A stretch of 64,000 nucleotides of DNA from Sabellastarte sp. h YS-2021 (Eukaryota > Annelida > Polychaeta > Sabellida > Sabellidae): positions 32,281,596-32,345,595 of the forward strand of contig OZ024935.1 in NCBI GenBank assembly GCA_964017235.1, written 5' to 3'. Under the pieces are notes generated by a model that was not told the origin of the DNA, searched no databases, and saw nothing but the letters and a program-made list of their open reading frames with translations. Position 1 is the first letter of the stretch. Each line of letters opens with the position of its first letter. Both the position numbers and the translations under genes were made by a program. Positions 1 through 64,000 of the stretch are shown one piece after another.

Positions 1-5
1 TCTGT

Positions 6-158
6 AAATAAGTCAAATATTGAGATGTAACGCTGGAATTTGGGTAGGATGTTAGTTTTGTGGCACTTGTGATTATAGCAATGATTTCAGACTTACATCT
101 ACATGGAAAATTCATGTCACAACCTGTCCAAGTTCCCAGAGCACCGTTTATCCTCCAC
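6..158 (+). repeat. Monomer A, reference copy (153 bp)
   Basis: A is the shortest monomer. Its first part carries TAACGCTGGAATTTGGGTAGG and TTAGTTTTGTGGCACTTGTG, shared with C apart from small changes, and its second part has ACATGGAAAATTCATGTCAC. Compared with C it has one extra G (CTTGTGATTAT against CTTGTATTAT) and lacks about 14 bp, corresponding to 448-461 in C (AAGGCTACATCGCC), which B, C and D all keep. Net length is 153. This copy has the type I markers GGATGTTAG, CACAACC, CCCAGAG and TTATCC, all different from the commoner GGACGTTAG, CACGACC, CCCGGAG and TTTTCC. Confidence 0.95.
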
Positions 159-325
159 AATTAAGTCAAATATTGAGATGTAATGCTGAAATTTGGGCAG
201 GACGTTAGATTCATGTTACTGGTGATGATAGAATAGATTTCAGACTTACATCTATGTGGGAAACTAGTGTTGCGACCTGTCAAGGCTACATCGCCCAAGT
301 ACCCGGAGCGCCTTTTTTCCTCTGT
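159..325 (+). repeat. Monomer B, reference copy (167 bp)
   Basis: B is recognised by TGGGCAGGACGTTAGATTC, ATGTTACTGGTGATGATAG and CTATGTGGGAAACTAGTG followed by TTGCGACC. It ends with the long pyrimidine tract CCTTTTTTCCTCT. It is closest to D, differing mainly at GATGATAG against GATAATAG and TTGCGACC against TCACGACC. This copy has AGAATAG, a marker of types I and V and of several region 2 units, where types III and IV have AGAAAAG. Confidence 0.95.
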
Positions 326-491
326 AACTAAGTGAAATTTTGAGATGAAACCCTGGATATTGGGCAGGAGATTAGTTTTGTGGCACTTGTATTATAGCAA
401 TGATTTCAGACTTAAATCTACATGGGAAACTAGTGTCATGACCCGTCAAGGCTACATCGCCAAAGTACCTGGAGCGCTGTTTTTCCTCCAA
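326..491 (+). repeat. Monomer C, reference copy (166 bp)
   Basis: C begins AACTAAGTGAAATTTTGAG, with GATGAAACCCTGG where the other monomers have GATGTAA. It shares TTAGTTTTGTGGCACTTGT with A, has ACTTAAATCTACATGGG where the others have ACTTACATCT, and ends with GGAGCGCTGTTTTTCC. This copy carries GGATATTGGGCAGGAG, the type I form. Other forms are GGAATTTGGCCAGGACATT (type III), GGAATTTGGGCAGGAGATT (type IV) and GGAATTTGGGCAGGACATT (type V). C keeps the 14-bp segment at 448-461 that A lacks. Confidence 0.95.
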
Positions 492-658
492 AACTAAGTC
501 AAATATTGAGATGTAATGCTGAAATTTGGGCTGGACGTTAGATTCATGTTACTGGTGATAATAGAAAAGATTTCAGACTTACATCTATGTGGGAAACTAG
601 TGTCACGACCTGTCAAGGCTACATCGCCCAAGTACCCGGAGCGCCTTTTTTCCTCTGT
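492..658 (+). repeat. Monomer D, reference copy (167 bp)
   Basis: D carries GGGCTGGACGTTAGATTC, GGTGATAATAG, GAAACTAGTGTCACGACC and the same CCCGGAGCGCC plus T6 pyrimidine tract as B. About 69 of its 167 bases are G or C (41%, counted by eye). D is the most informative monomer for typing: GAGCTGG, AGTAAAG, CAGAGTT and ACATGTC mark type III and V; TATATCT and CCCAGAG mark one form of type IV; GGTCATAAT marks unit II and many region 2 tetramers. Confidence 0.95.
646..656 (+). other. Pyrimidine tract with T6, example of the monomer-end tract
   Basis: B and D end with CCTTTTTTCCTCT, and A and C with a shorter GTTTTTCCTCC, so each monomer has one pyrimidine tract at nearly constant spacing. In A and C it is preceded by GGAG and ends CTCC, a weak 4-bp dyad. 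Such tracts can stiffen or bend DNA or exclude nucleosomes; that is general knowledge, not shown here. Confidence 0.6.
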
Positions 659-2299: not shown

Positions 2300-4593
2300 A
2301 AATAAGTCAAATATTGAGATGTAACGCTGGAATTTGGGTAGGATGTTAGTTTTGTGGCACTTGTGATTATAGCAATGATTTCAGACTTACATCTACATGG
2401 AAAATTCATGTCACAACCTGTCCAAGTTCCCAGAGCACCGTTTATCCTCCACAATTAAGTCAAATATTGAGATGTAATGCTGAAATTTGGGCAGGACGTT
2501 AGATTCATGTTACTGGTGATGATAGAATAGATTTCAGACTTACATCTATGTGGGAAACTAGTGTTGCGACCTGTCAAGGCTACATCGCCCAAGTACCCGG
2601 AGCGCCTTTTTTCCTCTGTAACTAAGTGAAATTTTGAGATGAAACCCTGGATATTGGGCAGGAGATTAGTTTTGTGGCACTTGTATTATAGCAATGATTT
2701 CAGACTTAAATCTACATGGGAAACTAGTGTCATGACCCGTCAAGGCTACATCGCCAAAGTACCTGGAGCGCTGTTTTTCCTCCAAAACTAAGTCAAATAT
2801 TGAGATGTAATGCTGAAATTTGGGCTGGACGTTAGATTCATGTTACTGGTGATAATAGAAAAGATTTCAGACTTACATCTATGTGGGAAACTAGTGTCAC
2901 GACCTGTCAAGGCTACATCGCCCAAGTACCCGGAGCGCCTTTTTTCCTCTGTAAATAAGTCAAATATTGAGATGTAACGCTGGAATTTGGGTAGGACGTT
3001 AGTTTTGTGGCACTTGTGATTATAGCAATGATTTCAGACTTAAATCTACATGGGAAACTAGTGTCATGACCCGTCAAGGCTACATCGCCAAAGTACCTGG
3101 AGCGCTGTTTTTCCTCCAAAACTAAGTCAAATATTGAGATGTAATGCTGAAATTTGGGCTGGACGTTAGATTCATGTTACTGGTCATAATAGAAAAGATT
3201 TCAGACTTACATCTATGTGGGAAACTAGTGTCACGACCTGTCAAGGCTACATCGCCCAAGTACCCGGAGCGCCTTTTTTCCTCTGTAAATAAGTCAAATA
3301 TTGAGATGTAACGCTGGAATTTGGGTAGGACGTTAGTTTTGTGGCACTTGTGATTATAGCAATGATTTCAGACTTACATCTACATGGAAAATTCATGTCA
3401 CGACCTGTCCAAGTTCCCGGAGCACCGTTTTTCCTCCATAATAAAGTCAAATATTGAGATGTAATGTTGAAATTTGGGCAGGACGTTAGATTCATGTTAC
3501 TGGTGATGATAGAAAAGATTTCAGACTTACATCTATGTGGGAAACTAGTGTTGCGACCTGTCAAGGCTACATCGCCCAAGTACCTGGAGCGCCTTTTTTC
3601 CTCTGTAACTAAGTGAAATTTTGAGATGAAACCCTGGAATTTGGCCAGGACATTAGTTTTGTGGCACTTGTATTATAGCAATGATTTCAGACTTAAATCT
3701 ACATGGGAAACTAGTGTCATGACCCGTCAAGGCTACATCGCCAAAGTACCTGGAGCGCTGTTTTTCCTCCAAAACTAAGTCAAATATTGAGATGTAATGC
3801 TGAAATTTGAGCTGGACGTTAGATTCATGTTACTGGTGATAATAGTAAAGATTTCAGAGTTACATCTATGTGGGAAACTAGTGTCACGACATGTCAAGGC
3901 TACATCGCCCAAGTACCCGGAGCGCCTTTTTTCCTCTGTAAATAAGTCAAATATTGAGATGTAACGCTGGAATTTGGGTAGGACGTTAGTTTTGTGGCAC
4001 TTGTGATTATAGCAATGATTTCAGACTTACATCTACATGGAAAATTCATGTCACGACCTGTCCAAGTTCCCGGAGCACCGTTTTTTCCTCCATAATTAAG
4101 TCAAATATTGCGATGTAATGCTGAAATTTGGGCAGGACGTTAGATTCATGTTACTGGTGATGATAGAAAAGATTTCAGACTTACATCTATGTGGGAAACT
4201 AGTGTTGCGAACTGTCAAGGCTACATCGCCCAAGTACCCGGAGCGCCTTTTTTCCTCTGTAACTAAGTGAAATTTTGAGATGAAACCCTGGAATTTGGGC
4301 AGGAGATTAGTTTTGTGGCACTTGTATTATAGCAATGATTTCAGACTTAAATCTACATGGGAAACTAGTGTTATCACCCGTCAAGGCTACATCGCCAAAG
4401 TACCTGGAGCGCTGTTTTTCCTCCAAAACTAAGTCAAATATTGAGATGTAATGCTGAAATTTGGGCTGGACGTTAGATTCATGTTACTGGTGATAATAGA
4501 AAAGATTTCAGACTTACATCTATGTGGGAAACTAGTGTCACGACCTGTCAAGGCTACATCGCCCAAGTACCCAGAGCGCCTTTTTTCCTCTGT
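2300..4593 (+). repeat. Super-unit 2: I-II-III-IV (2294 bp)
   Basis: Units are I 2300-2952, II 2953-3286, III 3287-3939 and IV 3940-4593. It copies super-unit 1 at a spacing of 2294 bp. The difference I noticed is in the type IV D: TACATCT here (C at 4517) against TATATCT (T at 2223). Confidence 0.95.
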
Positions 4594-6233
4594 AAATAAG
4601 TCAAATATTGAGATGTAACGCTGGAATTTGGGTAGGATGTTAGTTTTGTGGCACTTGTGATTATAGCAATGATTTCAGACTTACATCTACATGGAAAATT
4701 CATGTCACAACCTGTCCAAGTTCCCAGAGCACCGTTTATCCTCCACAATTAAGTCAAATATTGAGATGTAATGCTGAAATTTGGGCAGGACGTTAGATTC
4801 ATGTTACTGGTGATGATAGAATAGATTTCAGACTTACATCTATGTGGGAAACTAGTGTTGCGACCTGTCAAGGCTACATCGCCCAAGTACCCGGAGCGCC
4901 TTTTTTCCTCTGTAACTAAGTGAAATTTTGAGATGAAACCCTGGATATTGGGCAGAAGATTAGTTTTGTGGCACTTGTATTATAGCAATGATTTCAGACT
5001 TAAATCTACATGGGAAACTAGTGTCATGACCCGTCAAGGCTACATCGCCAAAGTACCTGGAGCGCTGTTTTTCCTCCAAAACTAAGTCAAATATTGAGAT
5101 GTAATGCTGAAATTTGGGCTGGACGTTAGATTCATGTTACTGGTGATAATAGAAAAGATTTCAGACTTACATCTATGTGGGAAACTAGTGTCACGACCTG
5201 TCAAGGCTACATCGCCCAAGTACCCGGAGCGCCTTTTTTCCTCTGTAAATAAGTCAAATATTGAGATGTAACGCTGGAATTTGGGTAGGACGTTAGTTTT
5301 GTGGCACTTGTGATTATAGCAATGATTTCAGACTTAAATCTACATGGGAAACTAGTGTCATGACCCGTCAAGGCTACATCGCCAAAGTACCTGGAGCGCT
5401 GTTTTTCCTCCAAAACTAAGTCAAATATTGAGATGTAATGCTGAAATTTGGGCTGGACGTTAGATTCATGTTACTGGTCATAATAGAAAAGATTTCAGAC
5501 TTACATCTATGTGGGAAACTAGTGTCACGACCTGTCAAGGCTACATCGCCCAAGTACCCGGAGCGCCTTTTTTCCTCTGTAAATAAGTCAAATATTGAGA
5601 TGTAACGCTGGAATTTGGGTAGGACGTTAGTTTTGTGGCACTTGTGATTATAGCAATGATTTCAGACTTACATCTACATGGAAAATTCATGTCACGACCT
5701 GTCCAAGTTCCCGGAGCACCGTTTTTCCTCCATAATAAAGTCAAATATTGAGATGTAATGTTGAAATTTGGGCAGGACGTTAGATTCATGTTACTGGTGA
5801 TGATAGAAAAGATTTCAGACTTACATCTATGTGGGAAACTAGTGTTGCGACCTGTCAAAGCTACATCGCCCAAGTACCTGGAGCGCCTTTTTTCCTCTGT
5901 AACTAAGTGAAATTTTGAGATGAAACCCTGGAATTTGGCCAGGACATTAGTTTTGTGGCACTTGTATTATAGCAATGATTTCAGACTTAAATCTACATGG
6001 GAAACTAGTGTCATGACCCGTCAAGGCTACATCGCCAAAGTACCTGGAGCGCTGTTTTTCCTCCAAAACTAAGTCAAATATTGAGATGTAATGCTGAAAT
6101 TTGAGCTGGACGTTAGATTCATGTTACTGGTGATAATAGTAAAGATTTCAGAGTTACATCTATGTGGGAAACTAGTGTCACGACATGTCAAGGCTACATC
6201 GCCCAAGTACCCGGAGCGCCTTTTTTCCTCTGT

Positions 6234-6554
6234 AAATAAGTCAAATATTGAGATGTAACGCTGGAATTTGGGTAGGACGTTAGTTTTGTGGCACTTGTGA
6301 TTATAGCAATGATTTCAGACTTACATCTACATGGAAAATTCATGTCACGACCTGTCCAAGTTCCCGGAGCACCGTTTTTTCCTCCATAATTAAGTCAAAT
6401 ATTGCGATGTAATGCTGAAATTTGGGCAGGACGTTAGATTCATGTTACTGGTGATGATAGAAAAGATTTCAGACTTACATCTATGTGGGAAACTAGTGTT
6501 GCGAACTGTCAAGGCTACATCGCCCAAGTACCCGGAGCGCCTTTTTTCCTCTGT
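6234..6554 (+). repeat. Unit IV': truncated type IV, A and B only (321 bp)
   Basis: A (154 bp, T6 form) and B (167 bp, ATTGCGATG, GCGAACTG) of type IV are followed directly by A of a type III tetramer; C and D (333 bp) are absent. The exchange lies in the roughly 50 bp shared by the ends of B and D, from TGTCAAGG to CTCTGTAA. Further copies are at 10476, 15052, 20959, 29481, 34391, 41262 and 47462. Confidence 0.93.
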
Positions 6555-7861
6555 AAATAAGTCAAATATTGAGATGTAACGCTGGAATTTGGGTAGGACG
6601 TTAGTTTTGTGGCACTTGTGATTATAGCAATGATTTCAGACTTACATCTACATGGAAAATTCATGTCACGACCTGTCCAAGTTCCCGGAGCACCGTTTTT
6701 CCTCCATAATAAAGTCAAATATTGAGATGTAATGTTGAAATTTGGGCAGGACGTTAGATTCATGTTACTGGTGATGATAGAAAAGATTTCAGACTTACAT
6801 CTATGTGGGAAACTAGTGTTGCGACCTGTCAAGGCTACATCGCCCAAGTACCTGGAGCGCCTTTTTTCCTCTGTAACTAAGTGAAATTTTGAGATGAAAC
6901 CCTGGAATTTGGCCAGGACATTAGTTTTGTGGCACTTGTATTATAGCAATGATTTCAGACTTAAATCTACATGGGAAACTAGTGTCATGACCCGTCAAGG
7001 CTACATCGCCAAAGTACCTGGAGCGCTGTTTTTCCTCCAAAACTAAGTCAAATATTGAGATGTAATGCTGAAATTTGAGCTGGACGTTAGATTCATGTTA
7101 CTGGTGATAATAGTAAAGATTTCAGAGTTACATCTATGTGGGAAACTAGTGTCACGACATGTCAAGGCTACATCGCCCAAGTACCCGGAGCGCCTTTTTT
7201 CCTCTGTAAATAAGTCAAATATTGAGATGTAACGCTGGAATTTGGGTAGGACGTTAGTTTTGTGGCACTTGTGATTATAGCAATGATTTCAGACTTACAT
7301 CTACATGGAAAATTCATGTCACGACCTGTCCAAGTTCCCGGAGCACCGTTTTTTCCTCCATAATTAAGTCAAATATTGCGATGTAATGCTGAAATTTGGG
7401 CAGGACGTTAGATTCATGTTACTGGTGATGATAGAAAAGATTTCAGACTTACATCTATGTGGGAAACTAGTGTTGCGAACTGTCAAGGCTACATCGCCCA
7501 AGTACCCGGAGCGCCTTTTTTCCTCTGTAACTAAGTGAAATTTTGAGATGAAACCCTGGAATTTGGGCAGGAGATTAGTTTTGTGGCACTTGTATTATAG
7601 CAATGATTTCAGACTTAAATCTACATGGGAAACTAGTGTTATCACCCGTCAAGGCTACATCGCCAAAGTACCTGGAGCGCTGTTTTTCCTCCAAAACTAA
7701 GTCAAATATTGAGATGTAATGCTGAAATTTGGGCTGGACGTTAGATTCATGTTACTGGTGATAATAGAAAAGATTTCAGACTTATATCTATGTGGGAAAC
7801 TAGTGTCACGACCTGTCAAGGCTACATCGCCCAAGTACCCAGAGCGCCTTTTTTCCTCTGT

Positions 7862-8515
7862 AAATAAGTCAAATATTGAGATGTAACGCTGGAATTTGGG
7901 TAGGATGTTAGTTTTGTGGCACTTGTGATTATAGCAATGATTTCAGACTTACATCTACATGGAAAATTCATGTCACGACCTGTCCAAGTTCCCGGAGCAC
8001 CGTTTTTTCCTCCATAATTAAGTCAAATATTGCGATGTAATGCTGAAATTTGGGCAGGACGTTAGATTCATGTTACTGGTGATGATAGAATAGATTTCAG
8101 ACTTACATCTATGTGGGAAACTAGTGTTGCAACCTTTCAAGGCTACATCGCCCAAGTACCCGGAGCGCCTTTTTTCCTCTGTAACTAAGTGAAATTTTGA
8201 GATGAAACCCTGGAATTTGGGCAGGACATTAGTTTTGTGGCACTTGTATTATAGCAATGATTTCAGACTTAAATCTACATGGGAAACTAGTGTCATGACC
8301 CGTCAAGGCTACATCGCCAAAGTACCTGGAGCGCTGTTTTTCCTCCAAAACTAAGTCAAATATTGAGATGTAATGCTGAAATTTGAGCTGGACGTTAGAT
8401 TCATGTTACTGGTGATAATAGTAAAGATTTCAGAGTTACATCTATGTGGGAAACTAGTGTCACGACATGTCAAGGCTACATCGCCCAAGTACCCGGAGCG
8501 CCTTTTTTCCTCTGT
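7862..8515 (+). repeat. Type V tetramer, mosaic of I, III and IV (654 bp)
   Basis: A starts with GGATGTTAG like type I but ends with CACGACC and the T6 tract of type IV. B has ATTGCGATG as in type IV, then AGAATAG as in type I, then the private TTGCAACCTTTC. C has GGGCAGG as in type IV with ACATT as in III. D is that of type III (GAGCTGG, AGTAAAG, CAGAGTT). This patchwork suggests gene conversion. Copies are at 12104, 31109, 36019, 38314 and 42890, with a relative at 48436. Confidence 0.9.
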
Positions 8516-9169
8516 AAATAAGTCAAATATTGAGATGTAACGCTGGAATTTGGGTAGGACGTTAGTTTTGTGGCACTTGTGATTATAGCAATGATTTCAG
8601 ACTTACATCTACATGGAAAATTCATGTCACGACCTGTCCAAGTTCCCGGAGCACCGTTTTTTCCTCCATAATTAAGTCAAATATTGCGATGTAATGCTGA
8701 AATTTGGGCAGGACGTTAGATTCATGTTACTGGTGATGATAGAAAAGATTTCAGACTTACATCTATGTGGGAAACTAGTGTTGCGAACTGTCAAGGCTAC
8801 ATCGCCCAAGTACCCGGAGCGCCTTTTTTCCTCTGTAACTAAGTGAAATTTTGAGATGAAACCCTGGAATTTGGGCAGGAGATTAGTTTTGTGGCACTTG
8901 TATTATAGCAATGATTTCAGACTTAAATCTACATGGGAAACTAGTGTTATCACCCGTCAAGGCTACATCGCCAAAGTACCTGGAGCGCTGTTTTTCCTCC
9001 AAAACTAAGTCAAATATTGAGATGTAATGCTGAAATTTGGGCTGGACGTTAGATTCATGTTACTGGTGATAATAGAAAAGATTTCAGACTTACATCTATG
9101 TGGGAAACTAGTGTCACGACCTGTCAAGGCTACATCGCCCAAGTACCCAGAGCGCCTTTTTTCCTCTGT

Positions 9170-12100
9170 AAATAAGTCAAATATTGAGATGTAACGCTGG
9201 AATTTGGGTAGGATGTTAGTTTTGTGGCACTTGTGATTATAGCAATGATTTCAGACTTACATCTACATGGAAAATTCATGTCACAACCTGTCCAAGTTCC
9301 CAGAGCACCGTTTATCCTCCACAATTAAGTCAAATATTGAGATGTAATGCTGAAATTTGGGCAGGACGTTAGATTCATGTTACTGGTGATGATAGAATAG
9401 ATTTCAGACTTACATCTATGTGGGAAACTAGTGTTGCGACCTGTCAAGGCTACATCGCCCAAGTACCCGGAGCGCCTTTTTTCCTCTGTAACTAAGTGAA
9501 ATTTTGAGATGAAACCCTGGATATTGGGCAGGAGATTAGTTTTGTGGCACTTGTATTATAGCAATGATTTCAGACTTAAATCTACATGGGAAACTAGTGT
9601 CATGACCCGTCAAGGCTACATCGCCAAAGTACCTGGAGCGCTGTTTTTCCTCCAAAACTAAGTCAAATATTGAGATGTAATGCTGAAATTTGGGCTGGAC
9701 GTTAGATTCATGTTACTGGTGATAATAGAAAAGATTTCAGACTTACATCTATGTGGGAAACTAGTGTCACGACCTGTCAAGGCTACATCGCCCAAGTACC
9801 CGGAGCGCCTTTTTTCCTCTGTAAATAAGTCAAATATTGAGATGTAACGCTGGAATTTGGGTAGGACGTTAGTTTTGTGGCACTTGTGATTATAGCAATG
9901 ATTTCAGACTTACATCTACATGGAAAATTCATGTCACGACCTGTCCAAGTTCCCGGAGCACCGTTTTTCCTCCATAATAAAGTCAAATATTGAGATGTAA
10001 TGTTGAAATTTGGGCAGGACGTTAGATTCATGTTACTGGTGATGATAGAAAAGATTTCAGACTTACATCTATGTGGGAAACTAGTGTTGCGACCTGTCAA
10101 AGCTACATCGCCCAAGTACCTGGAGCGCCTTTTTTCCTCTGTAACTAAGTGAAATTTTGAGATGAAACCCTGGAATTTGGCCAGGACATTAGTTTTGTGG
10201 CACTTGTATTATAGCAATGATTTCAGACTTAAATCTACATGGGAAACTAGTGTCATGACCCGTCAAGGCTACATCGCCAAAGTACCTGGAGCGCTGTTTT
10301 TCCTCCAAAACTAAGTCAAATATTGAGATGTAATGCTGAAATTTGAGCTGGACGTTAGATTCATGTTACTGGTGATAATAGTAAAGATTTCAGAGTTACA
10401 TCTATGTGGGAAACTAGTGTCACGACATGTCAAGGCTACATCGCCCAAGTACCCGGAGCGCCTTTTTTCCTCTGTAAATAAGTCAAATATTGAGATGTAA
10501 CGCTGGAATTTGGGTAGGACGTTAGTTTTGTGGCACTTGTGATTATAGCAATGATTTCAGACTTACATCTACATGGAAAATTCATGTCACGACCTGTCCA
10601 AGTTCCCGGAGCACCGTTTTTTCCTCCATAATTAAGTCAAATATTGCGATGTAATGCTGAAATTTGGGCAGGACGTTAGATTCATGTTACTGGTGATGAT
10701 AGAAAAGATTTCAGACTTACATCTATGTGGGAAACTAGTGTTGCGAACTGTCAAGGCTACATCGCCCAAGTACCCGGAGCGCCTTTTTTCCTCTGTAAAT
10801 AAGTCAAATATTGAGATGTAACGCTGGAATTTGGGTAGGACGTTAGTTTTGTGGCACTTGTGATTATAGCAATGATTTCAGACTTACATCTACATGGAAA
10901 ATTCATGTCACGACCTGTCCAAGTTCCCGGAGCACCGTTTTTCCTCCATAATAAAGTCAAATATTGAGATGTAATGTTGAAATTTGGGCAGGACGTTAGA
11001 TTCATGTTACTGGTGATGATAGAAAAGATTTCAGACTTACATCTATGTGGGAAACTAGTGTTGCGACCTGTCAAGGCTACATCGCCCAAGTACCTGGAGC
11101 GCCTTTTTTCCTCTGTAACTAAGTGAAATTTTGAGATGAAACCCTGGAATTTGGCCAGGACATTAGTTTTGTGGCACTTGTATTATAGCAATGATTTCAG
11201 ACTTAAATCTACATGGGAAACTAGTGTCATGACCCGTCAAGGCTACATCGCCAAAGTACCTGGAGCGCTGTTTTTCCTCCAAAACTAAGTCAAATATTGA
11301 GATGTAATGCTGAAATTTGAGCTGGACGTTAGATTCATGTTACTGGTGATAATAGTAAAGATTTCAGAGTTACATCTATGTGGGAAACTAGTGTCACGAC
11401 ATGTCAAGGCTACATCGCCCAAGTACCCGGAGCGCCTTTTTTCCTCTGTAAATAAGTCAAATATTGAGATGTAACGCTGGAATTTGGGTAGGACGTTAGT
11501 TTTGTGGCACTTGTGATTATAGCAATGATTTCAGACTTACATCTACATGGAAAATTCATGTCACGACCTGTCCAAGTTCCCGGAGCACCGTTTTTTCCTC
11601 CATAATTAAGTCAAATATTGCGATGTAATGCTGAAATTTGGGCAGGACGTTAGATTCATGTTACTGGTGATGATAGAAAAGATTTCAGACTTACATCTAT
11701 GTGGGAAACTAGTGTTGCGAACTGTCAAGGCTACATCGCCCAAGTACCCGGAGCGCCTTTTTTCCTCTGTAACTAAGTGAAATTTTGAGATGAAACCCTG
11801 GAATTTGGGCAGGAGATTAGTTTTGTGGCACTTGTATTATAGCAATGATTTCAGACTTAAATCTACATGGGAAACTAGTGTTATCACCCGTCAAGGCTAC
11901 ATCGCCAAAGTACCTGGAGCGCTGTTTTTCCTCCAAAACTAAGTCAAATATTGAGATGTAATGCTGAAATTTGGGCTGGACGTTAGATTCATGTTACTGG
12001 TGATAATAGAAAAGATTTCAGACTTATATCTATGTGGGAAACTAGTGTCACGACCTGTCAAGGCTACATCGCCCAAGTACCCAGAGCGCCTTTTTTCCTC

Positions 12101-50396: not shown

Positions 50397-53007
50397 AAAT
50401 AAGTCAAATATTGAGATGTAACGCTGGAATTTGGGTAGGACGTTAGTTTTGTGGCACTTGTGATTATAGCAATGATTTCAGACTTACATCTACATGGAAA
50501 ATTCATGTCACGACCTGTCCAAGTTCCCGGAGCACCGTTTTTCCTCCATAATTAAATCAAATATTGAGATGTAATGCTGAAATTTGGGCAGGACGTTAGA
50601 TTCATGTTACTGGTGATGATAGAATAGATTTCAGACTTACATCTATGTGGGAAACTAGTGTTGCGACCTGTCAAGGCTACATCGCCCAAGTACCCGGAGC
50701 GCCTTTTTTCCTCTGTAACTAAGTGAAATTTTGAGATGAAACCCTGGAATTTGGGCAGGAGATTAGTTTTGTGGCACTTGTATTATAGCAATGATTTCAG
50801 ACTTAAATCTACATGGGAAACTAGTGTCATGACCCGTCAAGGCTACATCGCCAAAGTACCTGGAGCGCTGTTTTTCCTCCAAAACTAAGTCAAATATTGA
50901 GATGTAATGCTGAAATTTGGGCTGGACGTTAGATTCATGTTACTGGTGATAATAGAAAAGATTTCAGACTTACATCTATGTGGGAAACTAGTGTCATGAC
51001 CTGTCAAGGCTACATCGCCCAAGTACCCGGAGCGCCTTTTTTCCTCTGTAAATAAGTCAAATATTGAGATGTAACGCTGGAATTTGGGTAGGACGTTAGT
51101 TTTGTGGCACTTGTGATTATAGCAATGATTTCAGACTTACATCTACATGGAAAATTCATGTCACGACCTGTCCAAGTTCCCGGAGCACCGTTTTTCCTCC
51201 ACAATTAAGTCAAATATTGAGATGTAATGCTGAAATTTGGGCAGGACGTTAGATTCATGTTACTGGTGATGATAGAAAAGATTTCAGACTTACATCTATG
51301 TGGGAAACCAGTGTTGCGAACTGTCAAGGCTACATCGCCCAAGTACCCGGAGCGCCTTTTTTCCTCTGTAACTAAGTGAAATTTTGAGATGAAACCCTGG
51401 AATTTGGGCAGGAGATTAGTTTTGTGGCACTTGTATTATAGCAATGATTTCAGACTTAAATCTACATGGGAAACTAGTGTCATGACCCGTCAAGGCTACA
51501 TCGCCAAAGTACCTGGAGCGCTGTTTTTCCTCCAAAACTAAGTCAAATATTGAGATGTAATGCTGAAATTTGGGCTGGACGTTAGATTCATGTTACTGGT
51601 CATAATAAAAAAGATTTCAGACTTACATCTATGTGGGAAACTAGTGTCACGACCTGTCAAGGCTACATCGCCCAAGTACCCGGAGCGCCTTTTTTCCTCT
51701 GTAAATAAGTCAAATATTGAGATGTAACGCTGGAATTTGGGTAGGACGTTAGTTTTGTGGCACTTGTGATTATAGCAATGATTTCAGACTTACATCTACA
51801 TGGAAAATTCATGTCACGACCTGTCCAAGTTCCCGGAGCACCGTTTTTCCTCCACAATTAAGTCAAATATTGAGATGTAATGCTGAAATTTGGGCAGGAC
51901 GTTAGATTCATGTTACTGGTGATGATAGAAAAGATTTCAGACTTACATCTATGTGGGAAACCAGTGTTGCGAACTGTCAAGGCTACATCGCCCAAGTACC
52001 CGGAGCGCCTTTTTTCCTCTGTAACTAAGTGAAATTTTGAGATGAAACCCTGGAATTTGGCCAGGACATTAGTTTTGTGGCACTTGTATTATAGCAATGA
52101 TTTCAGATTTAAATCTACATGGAAAACTAGTGTCATGACCCGTCAAGGCTACATCGCCAAAGTACCTGGAGCGCTGTTTTCCTCCAAAACTAAGTCAAAT
52201 ATTCAGATGTAATGCTGAAATTTGGGCTGGACGTTAGATTCATGTTACTGGTCATAATAGAAAAGATTTCAGACTTACATCTATGTGGGAAACTAGTGTC
52301 ACGACCTGTCAAGGCTACATCGCCCAAGTACCCGGACCGCCTTTTTTCCTCTGTAAATAAGTCAAATATTGAGATGTAACGCTGGAATTTAAGTAGGACG
52401 TTAGTTTTGTGGCACTTGTGATTATAGCAATGATTTCAGACTTACATCTACATGGAAAATTCATGTCACGACCTGTCCAAGTTCCCGGAGCACTGTTTTT
52501 CCTCCATAATTAAGTCAAATGTTGAGATGTAATGCTGAAATTTGGGCAGGACGTTAGATTCATGTTACTGGTGATGATACAATAGATTTCAGACTTACAT
52601 CTATGTGGGAAAATAGTGTTGCGACCTGTCAAGGCTACATCGCCCAAGTACCCGGAGCGCCTTTTTTCCTCTGTAACTAAGTGAAATTTTGAGATGAAAC
52701 CCTGGAATTTGGCCAGGACATTAGTTTTGTGGCACTTGTATTATAGCAATGATTTCAGACTTAAATCTACATGGGAAACTAGTGTCATGACCCGTCAAGG
52801 CTACATCGCCAAAGTACCTGGAGCGCTGTTTTTCCTCCAAAACTAAGTCAAATATTGAGATGTAATGCTGAAATTTGGGCTGGACGTTAGATTCATGTTA
52901 CTGGTCATAATAGAAAAGATTTCAGACTTACATCTATGTGGGAAACTAGTGTCACGACCTGTCAAGGCTACATCGCCCAAGTACCCGGAGCACCTTTTTT
53001 CCTCTGT
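50397..53007 (+). repeat. Region 2 block a-b-c-d, second copy (2611 bp)
   Basis: Tetramers are a 50397-51049, b 51050-51702, c 51703-52354 (652 bp) and d 52355-53007. All the markers of 44198-46808 are present at a constant offset of 6199 bp, including the one-base deletion in c and GATACAATAG in d. One difference seen is GCACTG in d (T at 52494) where the first copy has GCACCG. Confidence 0.93.
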
Positions 53008-53660
53008 AAATAAGTCAAATATTGAGATGTAACGCTGGAATTTGGGTAGGACGTTAGTTTTGTGGCACTTGTGATTATAGCAATGATTTCAGACTTACAT
53101 CTACATGGAAAATTCATGTCACGACCTGTCCAAGTTCCCGGAGCACCGTTTTTCCTCCATAATTAAGTCAAATATTGAGATGTAATGCTGAAATTTGGGC
53201 AGGACGTTAGATTCATGTTACTGGTGATGATAGAATAGATTTCAGACTTACATCTATGTGGGAAACTAGTGTTGCGACCTGTCAAGGCTACATCGCCCAA
53301 GTACCCGGAGCGCCTTTTTTCCTCTGTAACTAAGTGAAATTTTGAGATGAAACCCTGGAATTTGGGCAGGAGATTAGTTTTGTGGCACTTGTATTATAGC
53401 AATGATTTCAGACTTAAATCTACATGGGAAACTAGTGTCATGACCCGTCAAGGCTACATCGCCAAAGTACCTGGAGCGCTGTTTTTCCTCCAAAACTAAG
53501 TCAAATATTGAGATGTAATGCTGAAATTTGGGCTGGACGTTAGATTCATGTTACTGGTGATAATAGAAAAGATTTCAGACTTACATCTATGTGGGAAACT
53601 AGTGTCATGACCTGTCAAGGCTACATCGCCCAAGTACCCGGAGCGCCTTTTTTCCTCTGT
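53008..53660 (+). repeat. Tetramer e (653 bp)
   Basis: Markers are CCATAATTAAG, AGAATAG with TTGCGACC in B, GGGCAGGAGATT in C, and D with GATAATAG and CATGACCTG. It differs from tetramer a by AATTAAG instead of AATTAAATC. Further copies are at 54966, 58230 and 60796. Confidence 0.92.
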
Positions 53661-55618
53661 AAATAAGTCAAATATTGAGATGTAACGCTGGAATTTGGGT
53701 AGGACGTTAGTTTTGTGGCACTTGTGATTATAGCAATGATTTCAGACTTACATCTACATGGAAAATTCATGTCACGACCTGTCCAAGTTCCCGGAGCACC
53801 GTTTTTCCTCCACAATTAAGTCAAATATTGAGATGTAATGCTGAAATTTGGGCAGGACGTTAGATTCATGTTACTGGTGATGATAGAAAAGATTTCAGAC
53901 TTACATCTATGTGGGAAACCAGTGTTGCGAACTGTCAAGGCTACATCGCCCAAGTACCCGGAGCGCCTTTTTTCCTCTGTAACTAAGTGAAATTTTGAGA
54001 TGAAACCCTGGAATTTGGCCAGGACATTAGTTTTGTGGCACTTGTATTATAGCAATGATTTCAGATTTAAATCTACATGGAAAACTAGTGTCATGACCCG
54101 TCAAGGCTACATCGCCAAAGTACCTGGAGCGCTGTTTTCCTCCAAAACTAAGTCAAATATTCAGATGTAATGCTGAAATTTGGGCTGGACGTTAGATTCA
54201 TGTTACTGGTCATAATAGAAAAGATTTCAGACTTACATCTATGTGGGAAACTAGTGTCACGACCTGTCAAGGCTACATCGCCCAAGTACCCGGACCGCCT
54301 TTTTTCCTCTGTAAATAAGTCAAATATTGAGATGTAACGCTGGAATTTAAGTAGGACGTTAGTTTTGTGGCACTTGTGATTATAGCAATGATTTCAGACT
54401 TACATCTACATGGAAAATTCATGTCACGACCTGTCCAAGTTCCCGGAGCACCGTTTTTCCTCCATAATTAAGTCAAATGTTGAGATGTAATGCTGAAATT
54501 TGGGCAGGACGTTAGATTCATGTTACTGGTGATGATAGAATAGATTTCAGACTTACATCTATGTGGGAAAATAGTGTTGCGACCTGTCAAGGCTACATCG
54601 CCCAAGTACCCGGAGCGCCTTTTTTCCTCTGTAACTAAGTGAAATTTTGAGATGAAACCCTGGAATTTGGCCAGGACATTAGTTTTGTGGCACTTGTATT
54701 ATAGCAATGATTTCAGACTTAAATCTACATGGGAAACTAGTGTCATGACCCGTCAAGGCTACATCGCCAAAGTACCTGGAGCGCTGTTTTTCCTCCAAAA
54801 CTAAGTCAAATATTGAGATGTAATGCTGAAATTTGGGCTGGACGTTAGATTCATGTTACTGGTCATAATAGAAAAGATTTCAGACTTACATCTATGTGGG
54901 AAACTAGTGTCACGACCTGTCAAGGCTACATCGCCCAAGTACCCGGAGCACCTTTTTTCCTCTGTAAATAAGTCAAATATTGAGATGTAACGCTGGAATT
55001 TGGGTAGGACGTTAGTTTTGTGGCACTTGTGATTATAGCAATGATTTCAGACTTACATCTACATGGAAAATTCATGTCACGACCTGTCCAAGTTCCCGGA
55101 GCACCGTTTTTCCTCCATAATTAAGTCAAATATTGAGATGTAATGCTGAAATTTGGGCAGGACGTTAGATTCATGTTACTGGTGATGATAGAATAGATTT
55201 CAGACTTACATCTATGTGGGAAACTAGTGTTGCGACCTGTCAAGGCTACATCGCCCAAGTACCCGGAGCGCCTTTTTTCCTCTGTAACTAAGTGAAATTT
55301 TGAGATGAAACCCTGGAATTTGGGCAGGAGATTAGTTTTGTGGCACTTGTATTATAGCAATGATTTCAGACTTAAATCTACATGGGAAACTAGTGTCATG
55401 ACCCGTCAAGGCTACATCGCCAAAGTACCTGGAGCGCTGTTTTTCCTCCAAAACTAAGTCAAATATTGAGATGTAATGCTGAAATTTGGGCTGGACGTTA
55501 GATTCATGTTACTGGTGATAATAGAAAAGATTTCAGACTTACATCTATGTGGGAAACTAGTGTCATGACCTGTCAAGGCTACATCGCCCAAGTACCCGGA
55601 GCGCCTTTTTTCCTCTGT
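53661..55618 (+). repeat. c-d-e triplet (1958 bp)
   Basis: Tetramers are c 53661-54312 (652 bp), d 54313-54965 and e 54966-55618. The c starts 1958 bp after the previous c at 51703, so 51703-53660 and this block are adjacent tandem copies of the triplet. The d here has GATAGAATAG where the earlier d copies have GATACAATAG. Confidence 0.92.
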
Positions 55619-56271
55619 AAATAAGTCAAATATTGAGATGTAACGCTGGAATTTGGGTAGGACGTTAGTTTTGTGGCACTTGTGATTATAGCAATGATTT
55701 CAGACTTACATCTACATGGAAAATTCATGTCACGACCTGTCCAAGTTCCCGGAGCACCGTTTTTCCTCCACAATTAAGTCAAATATTGAGATGTAATGCT
55801 GAAATTTGGGCAGGACGTTAGATTCATGTTACTGGTGATGATAGAAAAGATTTCAGACTTACATCTATGTGGGAAACCAGTGTTGCGAACTGTCAAGGCT
55901 ACATCGCCCAAGTACCCGGAGCGCCTTTTTTCCTCTGTAACTAAGTGAAATTTTGAGATGAAACCCTGGATATTGGGCAGGAGATTAGTTTTGTGGCACT
56001 TGTATTATAGCAATGATTTCAGACTTAAATCTACATGGGAAACTAGTGTCATGACCCGTCAAGGCTACATCGCCAAAGTACCTGGAGCGCTGTTTTTCCT
56101 CCAAAACTAAGTCAAATATTGAGATGTAATGCTGAAATTTGGGCTGGACGTTAGATTCATGTTACTGGTGATAATAGAAAAGATTTCAGACTTACATCTA
56201 TGTGGGAAACTAGTGTCATGACCTGTCAAGGCTACATCGCCCAAGTACCCGGAGCGCCTTTTTTCCTCTGT
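55619..56271 (+). repeat. Tetramer f (653 bp)
   Basis: Markers are CCACAATT, AAACCAGTG with GCGAACTG in B, and GGATATTGGGCAGG in C. The D of this copy has GATAATAG and CATGACCTG, whereas the f copies at 58883 and 61449 have GGTCATAATAG and CACGACC. Confidence 0.91.
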
Positions 56272-56924
56272 AAATAAGTCAAATATTGAGATGTAACGCT
56301 GGAATTTGGGTAGGACGTTAGTTTTGTGGCACTTGTGATTATAGCAATGATTTCAGACTTACATCTACATGGAAAATTCATGTCACGACCTGTCCAAGTT
56401 CCCGGAGCACCGTTTTTCCTCCACAATTAAGTCAAATATTGAGATGTAATGCTGAAATTTGGGCAGGACGTTAGATTCATGTTACTGGTGATGATAGAAA
56501 AGATTTCAGACTTACATCTATGTGGGAAACCAGTGTTGCGAACTGTCAAGGCTACATCGCCCAAGTACCCGGAGCGCCTTTTTTCCTCTGTAACTAAGTG
56601 AAATTTTGTGATGAAACCCTGGAATTTGGGCAGGAGATTAGTTTTGTGGCACTTGTATTATAGCAATGATTTCAGACTTAAATCTACATGGGAAACTAGT
56701 GTCATGACCCGTCAAGGCTACATCGCCAAAGTACCTGGAGCGCTGTTTTTCCTCCAAAACTAAGTCAAATATTGAGATGTAATGCTGAAATTTGGGCTGG
56801 ACGTTAGATTCATGTTACTGGTCATAATAAAAAAGATTTCAGACTTACATCTATGTGGGAAACTAGTGTCACGACCTGTCAAGGCTACATCGCCCAAGTA
56901 CCCGGAGCGCCTTTTTTCCTCTGT
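56272..56924 (+). repeat. Tetramer b, third copy (653 bp)
   Basis: It has CCACAATT, AAACCAGTG, GGGCAGGAGATT and CATAATAAAAAAG as at 44851 and 51050. A private change in C gives ATTTTGTGATG (T at 56609). Confidence 0.92.
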
Positions 56925-58882
56925 AAATAAGTCAAATATTGAGATGTAACGCTGGAATTTGGGTAGGACGTTAGTTTTGTGGCACTTGTGATTATAGCAA
57001 TGATTTCAGACTTACATCTACATGGAAAATTCATGTCACGACCTGTCCAAGTTCCCGGAGCACCGTTTTTCCTCCACAATTAAGTCAAATATTGAGATGT
57101 AATGCTGAAATTTGGGCAGGACGTTAGATTCATGTTACTGGTGATGATAGAAAAGATTTCAGACTTACATCTATGTGGGAAACCAGTGTTGCGAACTGTC
57201 AAGGCTACATCGCCCAAGTACCCGGAGCGCCTTTTTTCCTCTGTAACTAAGTGAAATTTTGAGATGAAACCCTGGAATTTGGCCAGGACATTAGTTTTGT
57301 GGCACTTGTATTATAGCAATGATTTCAGATTTAAATCTACATGGAAAACTAGTGTCATGACCCGTCAAGGCTACATCGCCAAAGTACCTGGAGCGCTGTT
57401 TTCCTCCAAAACTAAGTCAAATATTCAGATGTAATGCTGAAATTTGGGCTGGACGTTAGATTCATGTTACTGGTCATAATAGAAAAGATTTCAGACTTAC
57501 ATCTATGTGGGAAACTAGTGTCACGACCTGTCAAGGCTACATCGCCCAAGTACCCGGACCGCCTTTTTTCCTCTGTAAATAAGTCAAATATTGAGATGTA
57601 ACGCTGGAATTTAAGTAGGACGTTAGTTTTGTGGCACTTGTGATTATAGCAATGATTTCAGACTTACATCTACATGGAAAATTCATGTCACGACCTGTCC
57701 AAGTTCCCGGAGCACCGTTTTTCCTCCATAATTAAGTCAAATGTTGAGATGTAATGCTGAAATTTGGGCAGGACGTTAGATTCATGTTACTGGTGATGAT
57801 AGAATAGATTTCAGACTTACATCTATGTGGGAAAATAGTGTTGCGACCTGTCAAGGCTACATCGCCCAAGTACCCGGAGCGCCTTTTTTCCTCTGTAACT
57901 AAGTGAAATTTTGAGATGAAACCCTGGAATTTGGCCAGGACATTAGTTTTGTGGCACTTGTATTATAGCAATGATTTCAGACTTAAATCTACATGGGAAA
58001 CTAGTGTCATGACCCGTCAAGGCTACATCGCCAAAGTACCTGGAGCGCTGTTTTTCCTCCAAAACTAAGTCAAATATTGAGATGTAATGCTGAAATTTGG
58101 GCTGGACGTTAGATTCATGTTACTGGTCATAATAGAAAAGATTTCAGACTTACATCTATGTGGGAAACTAGTGTCACGACCTGTCAAGGCTACATCGCCC
58201 AAGTACCCGGAGCGCCTTTTTTCCTCTGTAAATAAGTCAAATATTGAGATGTAACGCTGGAATTTGGGTAGGACGTTAGTTTTGTGGCACTTGTGATTAT
58301 AGCAATGATTTCAGACTTACATCTACATGGAAAATTCATGTCACGACCTGTCCAAGTTCCCGGAGCACCGTTTTTCCTCCATAATTAAGTCAAATATTGA
58401 GATGTAATGCTGAAATTTGGGCAGGACGTTAGATTCATGTTACTGGTGATGATAGAATAGATTTCAGACTTACATCTATGTGGGAAACTAGTGTTGCGAC
58501 CTGTCAAGGCTACATCGCCCAAGTACCCGGAGCGCCTTTTTTCCTCTGTAACTAAGTGAAATTTTGAGATGAAACCCTGGAATTTGGGCAGGAGATTAGT
58601 TTTGTGGCACTTGTATTATAGCAATGATTTCAGACTTAAATCTACATGGGAAACTAGTGTCATGACCCGTCAAGGCTACATCGCCAAAGTACCTGGAGCG
58701 CTGTTTTTCCTCCAAAACTAAGTCAAATATTGAGATGTAATGCTGAAATTTGGGCTGGACGTTAGATTCATGTTACTGGTGATAATAGAAAAGATTTCAG
58801 ACTTACATCTATGTGGGAAACTAGTGTCATGACCTGTCAAGGCTACATCGCCCAAGTACCCGGAGCGCCTTTTTTCCTCTGT
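56925..58882 (+). repeat. c-d-e triplet, third copy (1958 bp)
   Basis: Tetramers are c 56925-57576 (652 bp), d 57577-58229 and e 58230-58882. The d ends with GGAGCGCC instead of the GGAGCACC of earlier d copies, and has GATAGAATAG. Confidence 0.92.
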
Positions 58883-59535
58883 AAATAAGTCAAATATTGA
58901 GATGTAACGCTGGAATTTGGGTAGGACGTTAGTTTTGTGGCACTTGTGATTATAGCAATGATTTCAGACTTACATCTACATGGAAAATTCATGTCACGAC
59001 CTGTCCAAGTTCCCGGAGCACCGTTTTTCCTCCACAATTAAGTCAAATATTGAGATGTAATGCTGAAATTTGGGCAGGACGTTAGATTCATGTTACTGGT
59101 GATGATAGAAAAGATTTCAGACTTACATCTATGTGGGAAACCAGTGTTGCGAACTGTCAAGGCTACATCGCCCAAGTACCCGGAGCGCCTTTTTTCCTCT
59201 GTAACTAAGTGAAATTTTGAGATGAAACCCTGGATATTGGGCAGGAGATTAGTTTTGTGGCACTTGTATTATAGCAATGATTTCAGACTTAAATCTACAT
59301 GGGAAACTAGTGTCATGACCCGTCAAGGCTACATCGCCAAAGTACCTGGAGCGCTGTTTTTCCTCCAAAACTAAGTCAAATATTGAGATGTAATGCTGAA
59401 ATTTGGGCTGGACGTTAGATTCATGTTACTGGTCATAATAGAAAAGATTTCAGACTTACATCTATGTGGGAAACTAGTGTCACGACCTGTCAAGGCTACA
59501 TCGCCCAAGTACCCGGAGCGCCTTTTTTCCTCTGT
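58883..59535 (+). repeat. Tetramer f, second copy (653 bp)
   Basis: It has CCACAATT, AAACCAGTG, GGATATTGGG, GGTCATAATAG and CACGACC. It is followed by the deleted tetramer g, as is the f at 61449. Confidence 0.92.
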
Positions 59536-60142
59536 AAATAAGTCAAATATTGAGATGTAACGCTGGAATTTGGGTAGGACGTTAGTTTTGTGGCACTTGT
59601 GATTATAGCAATGATTTCAGACTTACATCTACATGGAAAATTCATGTCACGACCTGTCCAAGTGTAATGCTGAAATTTGGGCAGGACGTTAGATTCATGT
59701 TACTGGTGATGATAGAAAAGATTTCAGACTTACATCTATGTGGGAAACCAGTGTTGCGAACTGTCAAGGCTACATCGCCCAAGTACCCGGAGCGCCTTTT
59801 TTCCTCTGTAACTAAGTGAAATTTTGAGATGAAACCCTGGAATTTGGGCAGGAGATTAGTTTTGTGGCACTTGTATTATAGCAATGATTTCAGACTTAAA
59901 TCTACATAGGAAACTAGTGTCATGACCCGTCAAGGCTACATCGCCAAAGTACCTGGAGCGCTGTTTTTCCTCCAAAACTAAGTCAAATATTGAGATGTAA
60001 TGCTGAAATTTGGGCTGGACGTTAGATTCATGTTACTGGTCATAATAGAAAAGATTTCAGACTTACATCTATGTGGGAAACTAGTGTCACGACCTGTCAA
60101 GGCTACATCGCCCAAGTACCCGGAGCGCCTTTTTTCCTCTGT
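59536..60142 (+). repeat. Tetramer g with a 46-bp deletion at the A/B join (607 bp)
   Basis: A is normal up to CCTGTCCAAG at 59662 and continues directly with TGTAATGCTG of B. The last part of A and the first bases of B, including the usual AAGTCAAATATTGAGA block, are missing. B then has AAACCAGTG, and C carries a private CTACATAGG (A at 59908). The same deletion and the same private base occur 2566 bp further on, so this is one event later copied. Confidence 0.95.
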
Positions 60143-60795
60143 AATTAAGTCAAATATTGAGATGTAACGCTGGAATTTGGGTAGGACGTTAGTTTTGTGG
60201 CACTTGTGATTATAGCAATGATTTCAGACTTACATCTACATGGAAAATTCATGTCACGACCTGTCCAAGTTCCCGGAGCATCGTTTTTCATCCATAATTA
60301 AGTCAAATATTGAGATGTAATGCTGAAATTTGGGCAGGACGTTAGATTCATGTTACTGGTGATGATAGAATAGATTTCAGACTTACATCTATGTGGGAAA
60401 CTAGTGTTGCGACCTGTCAAGGCTACATCGCCCAAGTACCCGGAGCGCCTTTTTTCCTCTGTAACTAAGTGAAATTTTGAGATGAAACCCTGGAATTTGG
60501 CCAGGACATTAGTTTTGTGGCACTTGTATTATAGCAATGATTTCAGACTTAAATCTACATGGGAAACTAGTGTCATGACCCGTCAAGGCTACATCGCCAA
60601 AGTACCTGGAGCGCTGTTTTTCCTCCAAAACTAAGTCAAATATTGAGATGTAATGCTGAAATTTGGGCTGGACGTTAGATTCATGTTACTGGTCATAATA
60701 GAAAAGATTTCAGACTTACATCTATGTGGGAAACTAGTGTCACGACCTGTCAAGGCTACATCGCCCAAGTACCCGGAGCGCCTTTTTTCCTCTGT
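60143..60795 (+). repeat. Tetramer h (653 bp)
   Basis: A begins TAATTAAG instead of TAAATAAG and has GAGCATCG (T at 60281) and TTTCATCC (A at 60290). B has AGAATAG, C has GGCCAGGACATT and D has GGTCATAAT. Confidence 0.92.
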
Positions 60796-62101
60796 AAATA
60801 AGTCAAATATTGAGATGTAACGCTGGAATTTGGGTAGGACGTTAGTTTTGTGGCACTTGTGATTATAGCAATGATTTCAGACTTACATCTACATGGAAAA
60901 TTCATGTCACGACCTGTCCAAGTTCCCGGAGCACCGTTTTTCCTCCATAATTAAGTCAAATATTGAGATGTAATGCTGAAATTTGGGCAGGACGTTAGAT
61001 TCATGTTACTGGTGATGATAGAATAGATTTCAGACTTACATCTATGTGGGAAACTAGTGTTGCGACCTGTCAAGGCTACATCGCCCAAGTACCCGGAGCG
61101 CCTTTTTTCCTCTGTAACTAAGTGAAATTTTGAGATGAAACCCTGGAATTTGGGCAGGAGATTAGTTTTGTGGCACTTGTATTATAGCAATGATTTCAGA
61201 CTTAAATCTACATGGGAAACTAGTGTCATGACCCGTCAAGGCTACATCGCCAAAGTACCTGGAGCGCTGTTTTTCCTCCAAAACTAAGTCAAATATTGAG
61301 ATGTAATGCTGAAATTTGGGCTGGACGTTAGATTCATGTTACTGGTGATAATAGAAAAGATTTCAGACTTACATCTATGTGGGAAACTAGTGTCATGACC
61401 TGTCAAGGCTACATCGCCCAAGTACCCGGAGCGCCTTTTTTCCTCTGTAAATAAGTCAAATATTGAGATGTAACGCTGGAATTTGGGTAGGACGTTAGTT
61501 TTGTGGCACTTGTGATTATAGCAATGATTTCAGACTTACATCTACATGGAAAATTCATGTCACGACCTGTCCAAGTTCCCGGAGCACCGTTTTTCCTCCA
61601 CAATTAAGTCAAATATTGAGATGTAATGCTGAAATTTGGGCAGGACGTTAGATTCATGTTACTGGTGATGATAGAAAAGATTTCAGACTTACATCTATGT
61701 GGGAAACCAGTGTTGCGAACTGTCAAGGCTACATCGCCCAAGTACCCGGAGCGCCTTTTTTCCTCTGTAACTAAGTGAAATTTTGAGATGAAACCCTGGA
61801 TATTGGGCAGGAGATTAGTTTTGTGGCACTTGTATTATAGCAATGATTTCAGACTTAAATCTACATGGGAAACTAGTGTCATGACCCGTCAAGGCTACAT
61901 CGCCAAAGTACCTGGAGCGCTGTTTTTCCTCCAAAACTAAGTCAAATATTGAGATGTAATGCTGAAATTTGGGCTGGACGTTAGATTCATGTTACTGGTC
62001 ATAATAGAAAAGATTTCAGACTTACATCTATGTGGGAAACTAGTGTCACGACCTGTCAAGGCTACATCGCCCAAGTACCCGGAGCGCCTTTTTTCCTCTG
62101 T
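60796..62101 (+). repeat. e-f pair (1306 bp)
   Basis: Tetramers are e 60796-61448 and f 61449-62101. With the flanking g and h units they form the second round of an e-f-g-h repeat of 2566 bp, the first round being 58230-60795. Confidence 0.92.
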
Positions 62102-62708
62102 AAATAAGTCAAATATTGAGATGTAACGCTGGAATTTGGGTAGGACGTTAGTTTTGTGGCACTTGTGATTATAGCAATGATTTCAGACTTACATCTACAT
62201 GGAAAATTCATGTCACGACCTGTCCAAGTGTAATGCTGAAATTTGGGCAGGACGTTAGATTCATGTTACTGGTGATGATAGAAAAGATTTCAGACTTACA
62301 TCTATGTGGGAAACCAGTGTTGCGAACTGTCAAGGCTACATCGCCCAAGTACCCGGAGCGCCTTTTTTCCTCTGTAACTAAGTGAAATTTTGAGATGAAA
62401 CCCTGGAATTTGGGCAGGAGATTAGTTTTGTGGCACTTGTATTATAGCAATGATTTCAGACTTAAATCTACATAGGAAACTAGTGTCATGACCCGTCAAG
62501 GCTACATCGCCAAAGTACCTGGAGCGCTGTTTTTCCTCCAAAACTAAGTCAAATATTGAGATGTAATGCTGAAATTTGGGCTGGACGTTAGATTCATGTT
62601 ACTGGTCATAATAGAAAAGATTTCAGACTTACATCTATGTGGGAAACTAGTGTCACGACCTGTCAAGGCTACATCGCCCAAGTACCCGGAGCGCCTTTTT
62701 TCCTCTGT
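62102..62708 (+). repeat. Tetramer g, second copy of the 46-bp deletion (607 bp)
   Basis: The A/B junction CCAAG/TGTAATG is at 62228/62229, and the private CTACATAGG is at 62474. Both lie exactly 2566 bp after the first copy. Confidence 0.95.
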
Positions 62709-63361
62709 AATTAAGTCAAATATTGAGATGTAACGCTGGAATTTGGGTAGGACGTTAGTTTTGTGGCACTTGTGATTATAGCAATGATTTCAGACTTACA
62801 TCTACATGGAAAATTCATGTCACGACCTGTCCAAGTTCCCGGAGCATCGTTTTTCATCCATAATTAAGTCAAATATTGAGATGTAATGCTGAAATTTGGG
62901 CAGGACGTTAGATTCATGTTACTGGTGATGATAGAATAGATTTCAGACTTACATCTATGTGGGAAACTAGTGTTGCGACCTGTCAAGGCTACATCGCCCA
63001 AGTACCCGGAGCGCCTTTTTTCCTCTGTAACTAAGTGAAATTTTGAGATGAAACCCTGGAATTTGGGCAGGAGATTAGTTTTGTGGCACTTGTATTATAG
63101 CAATGATTTCAGACTTAAATCTACATGGGAAACTAGTGTCATGACCCGTCAAGGCTACATCGCCAAAGTACCTGGAGCGCTGTTTTTCCTCCAAAACTAA
63201 GTCAAATATTGAGATGTAATGCTGAAATTTGGGCTGGACGTTAGATTCATGTTACTGGTGATAATAGAAAAGATTTCAGACTTACATCTATGTGGGAAAC
63301 TAGTGTCATGACCTGTCAAGGCTACATCGCCCAAGTACCCGGAGCGCCTTTTTTCCTCTGT
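62709..63361 (+). repeat. Tetramer h/e (653 bp)
   Basis: A carries all the h markers (TAATTAAG, T at 62847, A at 62856). C and D are those of e (GGGCAGGAGATT, GATAATAG, CATGACCTG). The switch from h to e falls between the shared B and the start of C. Confidence 0.91.
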
Positions 63362-64000
63362 AAATAAGTCAAATATTGAGATGTAACGCTGGAATTTGGG
63401 TAGGACGTTAGTTTTGTGGCACTTGTGATTATAGCAATGATTTCAGACTTACATCTACATGGAAAATTCATGTCACGACCTGTCCAAGTTCCCGGAGCAC
63501 CGTTTTTCCTCCACAATTAAGTCAAATATTGAGATGTAATGCTGAAATTTGGGCAGGACGTTAGATTCATGTTACTGGTGATGATAGAAAAGATTTCAGA
63601 CTTACATCTATGTGGGAAACCAGTGTTGCAAACTGTCAAGGCTACATCGCCCAAGTACCCGGAGCGCCTTTTTTCCTCTGTAACTAAGTGAAATTTTGAG
63701 ATGAAACCCTGGATATTGGGCAGGAGATTAGTTTTGTGGCACTTGTATTATAGCAATGATTTCAGACTTAAATCTACATGGGAAACTAGTGTCATGACCC
63801 GTCAAGGCTACATCGCCAAAGTACCTGGAGCGCTGTTTTTCCTCCAAAACTAAGTCAAATATTGAGATGTAATGCTGAAATTTGGGCTGGACGTTAGATT
63901 CATGTTACTGGTCATAATAGAAAAGATTTCAGACTTACATCTATGTGGGAAACTAGTGTCATGACCTGTCAAGGCTACATCGCCCAAGTACCCGGAGCGC
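63362..64000 (+). repeat. Tetramer f, cut by the window end (639 of 653 bp)
   Basis: It has CCACAATT, AAACCAGTG and GGATATTGGG, a private TTGCAAACTG in B (A at 63630), and D with GGTCATAAT and CATGACCTG. The last 14 bases of D lie outside the window, so the array continues. Confidence 0.93.

Follow-up and report, generated by a model that had tools for sequence, protein, structure and literature searches.

Where did the layered higher-order repeats (HORs) of animal satellites come from, and can such layering arise more than once? The origin of these repeats is known mostly from primates, and the locus described here raises the question in a very different animal. The window, by which we mean the whole 64,000-nucleotide stretch of DNA that was analysed (positions 1 to 64000, forward strand), is one head-to-tail satellite array throughout its 64 kb. 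It occupies positions 32,281,596-32,345,595 of contig C11 (chromosome 9) in the 1.786-Gb genome of Sabellastarte sp. h YS-2021, and belongs to an array of about 269 kb, from about 32,252,081 to about 32,521,000, whose edges were placed by sampling. All samples of this array share one strand, the right-edge sample (L042) giving two short reverse matches against ten forward ones, and the window has no 16-mer in common with its own reverse complement. The first-pass annotation had placed this layering outside primates, and the host is indeed a sabellid annelid.

The published assembly of this animal comprises 1786.39 Mb in 14 chromosomes and a 15.35-kb mitochondrion (PMC13234546). Chromosomes of 193.65, 190.50, 189.25, 181.91, 155.04, 143.65 and 120.81 Mb in that paper equal contigs C1 to C7 after rounding, and its chromosome 9, of 104.61 Mb, equals contig C11 plus the two next contigs. 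The assembly analysed here has 647 contigs, and the published one has 723 scaffolds and a slightly larger total (PMC13234546), so some pieces differ. Among the contigs listed, at least 14 measure 31 Mb or more. In the mitochondrial contig of 15,345 bp, COX1 translates with AGR as serine. Within the main text of PMC13234546, neither "centromer" nor "satellite" is used anywhere.

We cut the window into monomers at a conserved anchor, which gave 390 starts and 389 intervals. Nearly all intervals are 153-167 bp long (207 of 167 bp, 85 of 166, 59 of 153, 32 of 154 and four of 165), and two measure 274 bp. They comprise 47 distinct monomers, which fall into types A (91), B (95), C (89) and D (98), a hybrid H (14) and a fusion X (2). 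The two half-types alternate at all 384 junctions that do not touch X, and the two half-motifs named in the first-pass annotation occur 196 times each. Among the commonest variants, A and C are 86.2% identical and B and D 94.0%, compared with 84.9% for A and B and 79.5% for C and D; these identities fit the earlier proposal that the 653-bp ABCD tetramer is a diverged, doubled dimer. On average a monomer is 81.6% identical to its neighbour, 91.0% to the next but one and 95.9% to the fourth. Folding of the monomer consensus showed nothing unusual (z 0.12). The layering itself is real: ungapped self-match, with a mean of 0.26, rises to 0.548 at 167 bp, 0.499 at 333 bp, 0.603 at 653 bp, 0.458 at 2294 bp and 0.397 at 4576 bp, which are the peaks that had been anticipated.

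Above the tetramer, we compared the matching of monomer variants at each distance with 200 shuffles of the variants within type, the types being kept in place. Matching exceeded every shuffle at 14 monomers (0.168, highest shuffle 0.109), 28 (0.161, 0.108), 72 (0.158, 0.107), 142 (0.215, 0.162) and 214 (0.240, 0.166), and at further distances as well. At four monomers it fell below the null mean (0.042 vs 0.109), which indicates that adjacent tetramers are made of different variants. The homogenised units are a 14-mer of 2294 bp and 26-, 28- and 30-mers of 4242, 4576 and 4910 bp. The 14-mer consists of three tetramers and one H-D dimer, in the variant string A3 B1 C3 D2 H1 D3 A2 B3 C1 D1 A1 B2 C2 D4 (or D5), where numbered letters denote monomer variants; the exact string stands at three places, all on the forward strand (10-2303, 2304-4597 and 22270-24563). 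The super-units are built from dimers, and not from ordered tetramer types as had been supposed. The 28-mer recurs on the same strand at 4594-9169, 27841-32416 and 39622-44197, the three places first noted for the 4576-bp pattern, in copies that are 99.91-99.96% identical. A 26-mer variant without the H-D dimer follows at 9174-13415 (+), and a 30-mer variant with one additional H-D dimer at 32421-37330 (+). The exact string of 28 variants has no match anywhere in the window because copies differ in single monomers, and a 21-monomer core is found five times.

HORs have been defined by monomers that are 70-90% identical within the unit and by corresponding monomers that are more than 95% identical between units (PMC5615363). 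Here, neighbouring monomers are 81.6% identical, B and D being closer at 94.0%, and copies of the 4576-bp unit differ by less than one base in a thousand. In apes, some HORs are cascading, with internal repetition within the unit, e.g., the orangutan Y 58-mer (PMC12428378). The 28-mer is of this cascading kind because monomer types recur within it (28 monomers, 20 types); the 14-mer, unlike it, has all types distinct and is a plain HOR. We are almost certain of the structural reading, in which an HOR satellite grew by unequal exchange. The stricter proposal of five nested levels is not supported as it was put: monomers, dimers, tetramers and units that comprise 14 to 30 monomers are present, but the fifth level consists of irregular duplications, at offsets of 11,781, 23,247 and 35,028, without a regular period.

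The super-units lie mostly in the left 70% of the window, and the right 30% consists mostly of tetramer multiples. From the monomer string and the periodicity by domain, we distinguish a left domain (1-44700, +), with the 14-mer, the 26-, 28- and 30-mers and all 14 H monomers, from a right domain (44700-64000, +), with mostly tetramer multiples of 1958, 2566 and 3264 bp, no H and both X; the boundary at about 44.7 kb was chosen by eye. The two domains have 17 variants in common, and a left-type fragment stands inside the right domain, where an exact 2315-bp repeat of the sequence at 43980 begins at 50179.

With exact internal repeats of up to 4934 bp, it is important to consider whether the order of unit types arose in assembly, the more so as the average HiFi read is only about 9.1 kb (computed from totals in PMC13234546). 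Reads of that length nevertheless exceed the longest exact repeat in the window, 4934 bp; neither the window nor sampled loci L001-L024 contain a single N; the hybrid monomer occurs 14 times and in more than one context; and units longer than the base unit are also present in the arrays sampled on contigs C1 and C2. We consider an artefact of this kind very improbable.

The hybrids suggest how the longer units may have formed. The first of the 14 H monomers, H1 (663-829, +), has the 5' part of A and the 3' part of C: its first 85 nt are 100% identical to A variants and its last 82 nt to C variants. At their maximum, identity to an A variant runs through base 86 and identity to a C variant covers the last 105 of 167 bases, and since these parts overlap, the exchange lay inside a 24-bp identical stretch. 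All H monomers lie left of about 44.7 kb. Judged from its sequence, variant B8 looks like a D/B hybrid, less sharp than H1. The X monomer, X1 (59540-59813, +), is a 274-bp A-B fusion that is 47 bp shorter than A (154 bp) plus B (167 bp), with one shared junction base; its second copy (62106-62379, +) begins 2566 bp after the first. H1, B8 and X1 are the products expected from unequal exchange and deletion. An ancestral dimer would have doubled and then diverged into the tetramer, unequal exchange between neighbouring units may have given rise to hybrid monomers and to units of increasing length, and the 2294-bp family would then have expanded through the central part of the array, with tetramer-based stretches on either side.

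Samples from the rest of the array show where this family lies. Besides the window itself, the preceding 10 kb (L005) show the 2294-bp period, and samples further left (L006) and further right (L014 and L015) contain tetramer multiples that are homogenised to 99.2-100%. Because these tetramer stretches are as homogenised as the 2294-bp domain, the domain need not be younger, and no age gradient appears within the array. Among 600-bp tiles for which the sample itself contains a partner, best identity has a median, sample by sample, of 98.8-100% in all 11 samples from contigs C1, C2 and C11, and of 76% at the edge of the array on contig C5 (six of nine tiles with a partner). Four array edges were read, of which three have diverged monomers (right on C5, right on C11, left on C2) and one, the left edge on C11, is abrupt.

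Among the matches listed, related arrays are located on six of the 14 chromosomes (contigs C1, with two, C2, C5, C7, C8 and C11), and large arrays lie well inside contigs C1, C2, C5, C7 and C11. For C8 the evidence is ten matches over 20 kb only, and for the arrays on C5 and C7 and the second one on C1 it is a few short samples and the match lists. The base unit is a 487-bp trimer on contig C1, a 654-bp tetramer and an 823-bp pentamer on C2, and a 653-bp tetramer on C11; on C7, the first among the matches listed are spaced by 487-488 and 654 bp. One pattern that is frequent in the window has 514 occurrences genome-wide, compared with 553 predicted for the C11 array by scaling from sampled C11 DNA, and among the matches listed it lies at one place on contig C1, one on C2 and otherwise on C11. 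On the chromosomes read, the units are therefore chromosome-specific, as they are in human alpha satellite. The mean identity of sampled monomers is 81.0-83.6% between contigs C1, C2 and C11 and 85.2-88.5% within each; at the C5 edge it is 78.6% within the sample. The two large arrays on contig C1, at 58.5-58.7 Mb (minus) and 138.3-138.6 Mb (plus), differ in unit structure and have opposite orientations, perhaps the result of a fusion that left a relict centromere.

The arrays also have short monomers in common. Short monomers account for 63 of 182 short and long monomers on contig C1, 173 of 702 on C11 and 22 of 101 on C2, i.e., roughly a third, a quarter and a fifth. A 14-bp deletion occurs at the same position in 167 of 173 short monomers on C11, 63 of 64 on C1, 20 of 22 on C2 and two of seven on C5 (the last total being counted from lengths), and in the two further short monomers on C2 the deletion is shifted by two bases. 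A tree of monomers did not unite the short monomers of different chromosomes in one clade with support; it is the position of the deletion that speaks for its common descent.

On contigs C3 and C21, short islands were all that was seen. The island on C21 (L086, 9,681,000-9,684,000) is diverged, yields nine monomers over about 1.6 kb and lies in non-satellite DNA; that on C3 (L116, at 98,551,150) is likewise diverged and short, and one of its monomers seems by eye to have the 14-bp deletion. Such islands might be expected if the monomer had been spread by a mobile element in which it formed an internal tandem repeat, the large arrays being secondary expansions. Inspection by eye revealed no element ends flanking the C21 island, however, and the window has no open reading frame of 150 aa or more. 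We see very little chance that this explanation is correct.

What, then, is the array? We consider it a major satellite of this sabellid annelid and, most likely, the one at its centromeres. The size of the array, its interior position and its chromosome-specific units give it the look of a primate-type centromere. On this proposed reading, the array would be retained as the carrier of kinetochore chromatin (CENP-A). We scanned the monomers for the consensus of the CENP-B box. On C11, the best match has three mismatches among nine fixed positions in 689 of 708 monomers and four in the other 19; two mismatches are reached by 84 of 183 monomers on contig C1, 28 of 101 on C2 and six of 17 on C5, which is chance level, as 154 of 500 shuffles have two or fewer. 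Centromeres need neither a CENP-B box nor unusual folding.

A separate satellite with a 680-bp repeat (L007, L025-L031) ends 20-25 kb left of the 167-bp array on C11. It is homogenised at least as much (in L007, median 100%, minimum 99.7%), and 680-bp-like repeats also stand at 59.0 Mb on contig C1 and 30.9 Mb on C2. A 90-bp stretch of the repeat resembles the monomer: aligned with B it scores 52, where 300 shuffles reach 36 at best; aligned with A it scores 38, which is not above the shuffles (up to 39). The first 100 bases (L071) of contig C18, which is 94.9 Mb long, resemble the 680-bp repeat at 77% identity.

Several observations speak against a centromeric array: a reading with one centromere must explain the two large arrays on contig C1, the homogenised 680-bp satellite nearby could be the centromeric repeat instead, and arrays were located, among the matches listed, on only six of 14 chromosomes. 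The first two, together with the 680-bp-like repeats on contigs C1 and C2, are what would be expected of a pericentromeric or interstitial heterochromatin satellite, with the kinetochore elsewhere, e.g., on the 680-bp satellite. Chromosome-specific HORs are, however, the usual look of the core of a primate centromere, and the 680-bp-like sequence at the start of C18 means that this repeat is not confined to regions with arrays. We therefore judge a heterochromatin satellite to be unlikely, at perhaps the level of a serious minority opinion, and retain the centromeric satellite as the preferred reading.

With primate alpha satellite (PMC12428378), the array has in common monomers of about 170 bp, units of tens of monomers, internal repetition of types and copies that are more than 99% identical, a likeness of architecture. 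It differs in having no CENP-B box beyond chance, an annelid host, a class of short monomers with a 14-bp deletion and a size of about 269 kb. The HORs of beetles are likewise higher-order units in an invertebrate satellite; as a rule they are dimers, and their complex units owe their form to interspersed or inverted pieces (PMC5615363), whereas the Sabellastarte array has base units of three to five monomers, lies on one strand and reaches 30 monomers per unit. BIV160 of bivalves has monomers of about 160 bp and a short similarity, AGACTTAYAT (PMC5139131). We rejected kinship with BIV160 on a comparison with two published primer sequences: both align at chance level (shuffles equalled or beat their scores in 254 and 741 of 1000 cases), and the exact 20-mer of one has no occurrence in the genome.

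The family, which was not recognised at first sight, gave no Rfam match at gathering score in the window, nor did the 680-bp repeat locus L007. Five 18-21-mers were unmatched in the literature searched by sequence, where the monomer returned only the BIV160 paper (PMC5139131) and chance 11-mer matches, and a 21-mer of the monomer is absent from viral_contigs and genome_contigs. Literature searches found no nested HORs outside primates, and on satellites returned mainly other animals and no Sabellastarte satellite; the available part of PMC12692304 holds nothing on HORs.

These comparisons suggest an independent origin of a primate-like layered architecture in an animal very remote from primates. 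A bolder version is that this annelid independently evolved the full centromere style of alpha satellite: short and long monomers set apart by a 14-bp indel, roughly one short copy to each base unit; base units of three, four or five monomers that are specific to chromosomes; cascading 26- to 30-mers formed via hybrids; and diverged edges. Chromosome 1, with two arrays of differing units in opposite orientation, would then be a fusion product with an active and a silenced centromere. We put this forward tentatively, as a possibility against which the odds still lean. The Sabellastarte array, lying in a readable HiFi assembly, is a candidate centromere for annelids, a phylum for which a literature search on centromeres returned grasshopper work only. 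If independent, the annelid case would be a test of whether cascading units and chromosome-specific families result from unequal exchange where there is no CENP-B box.
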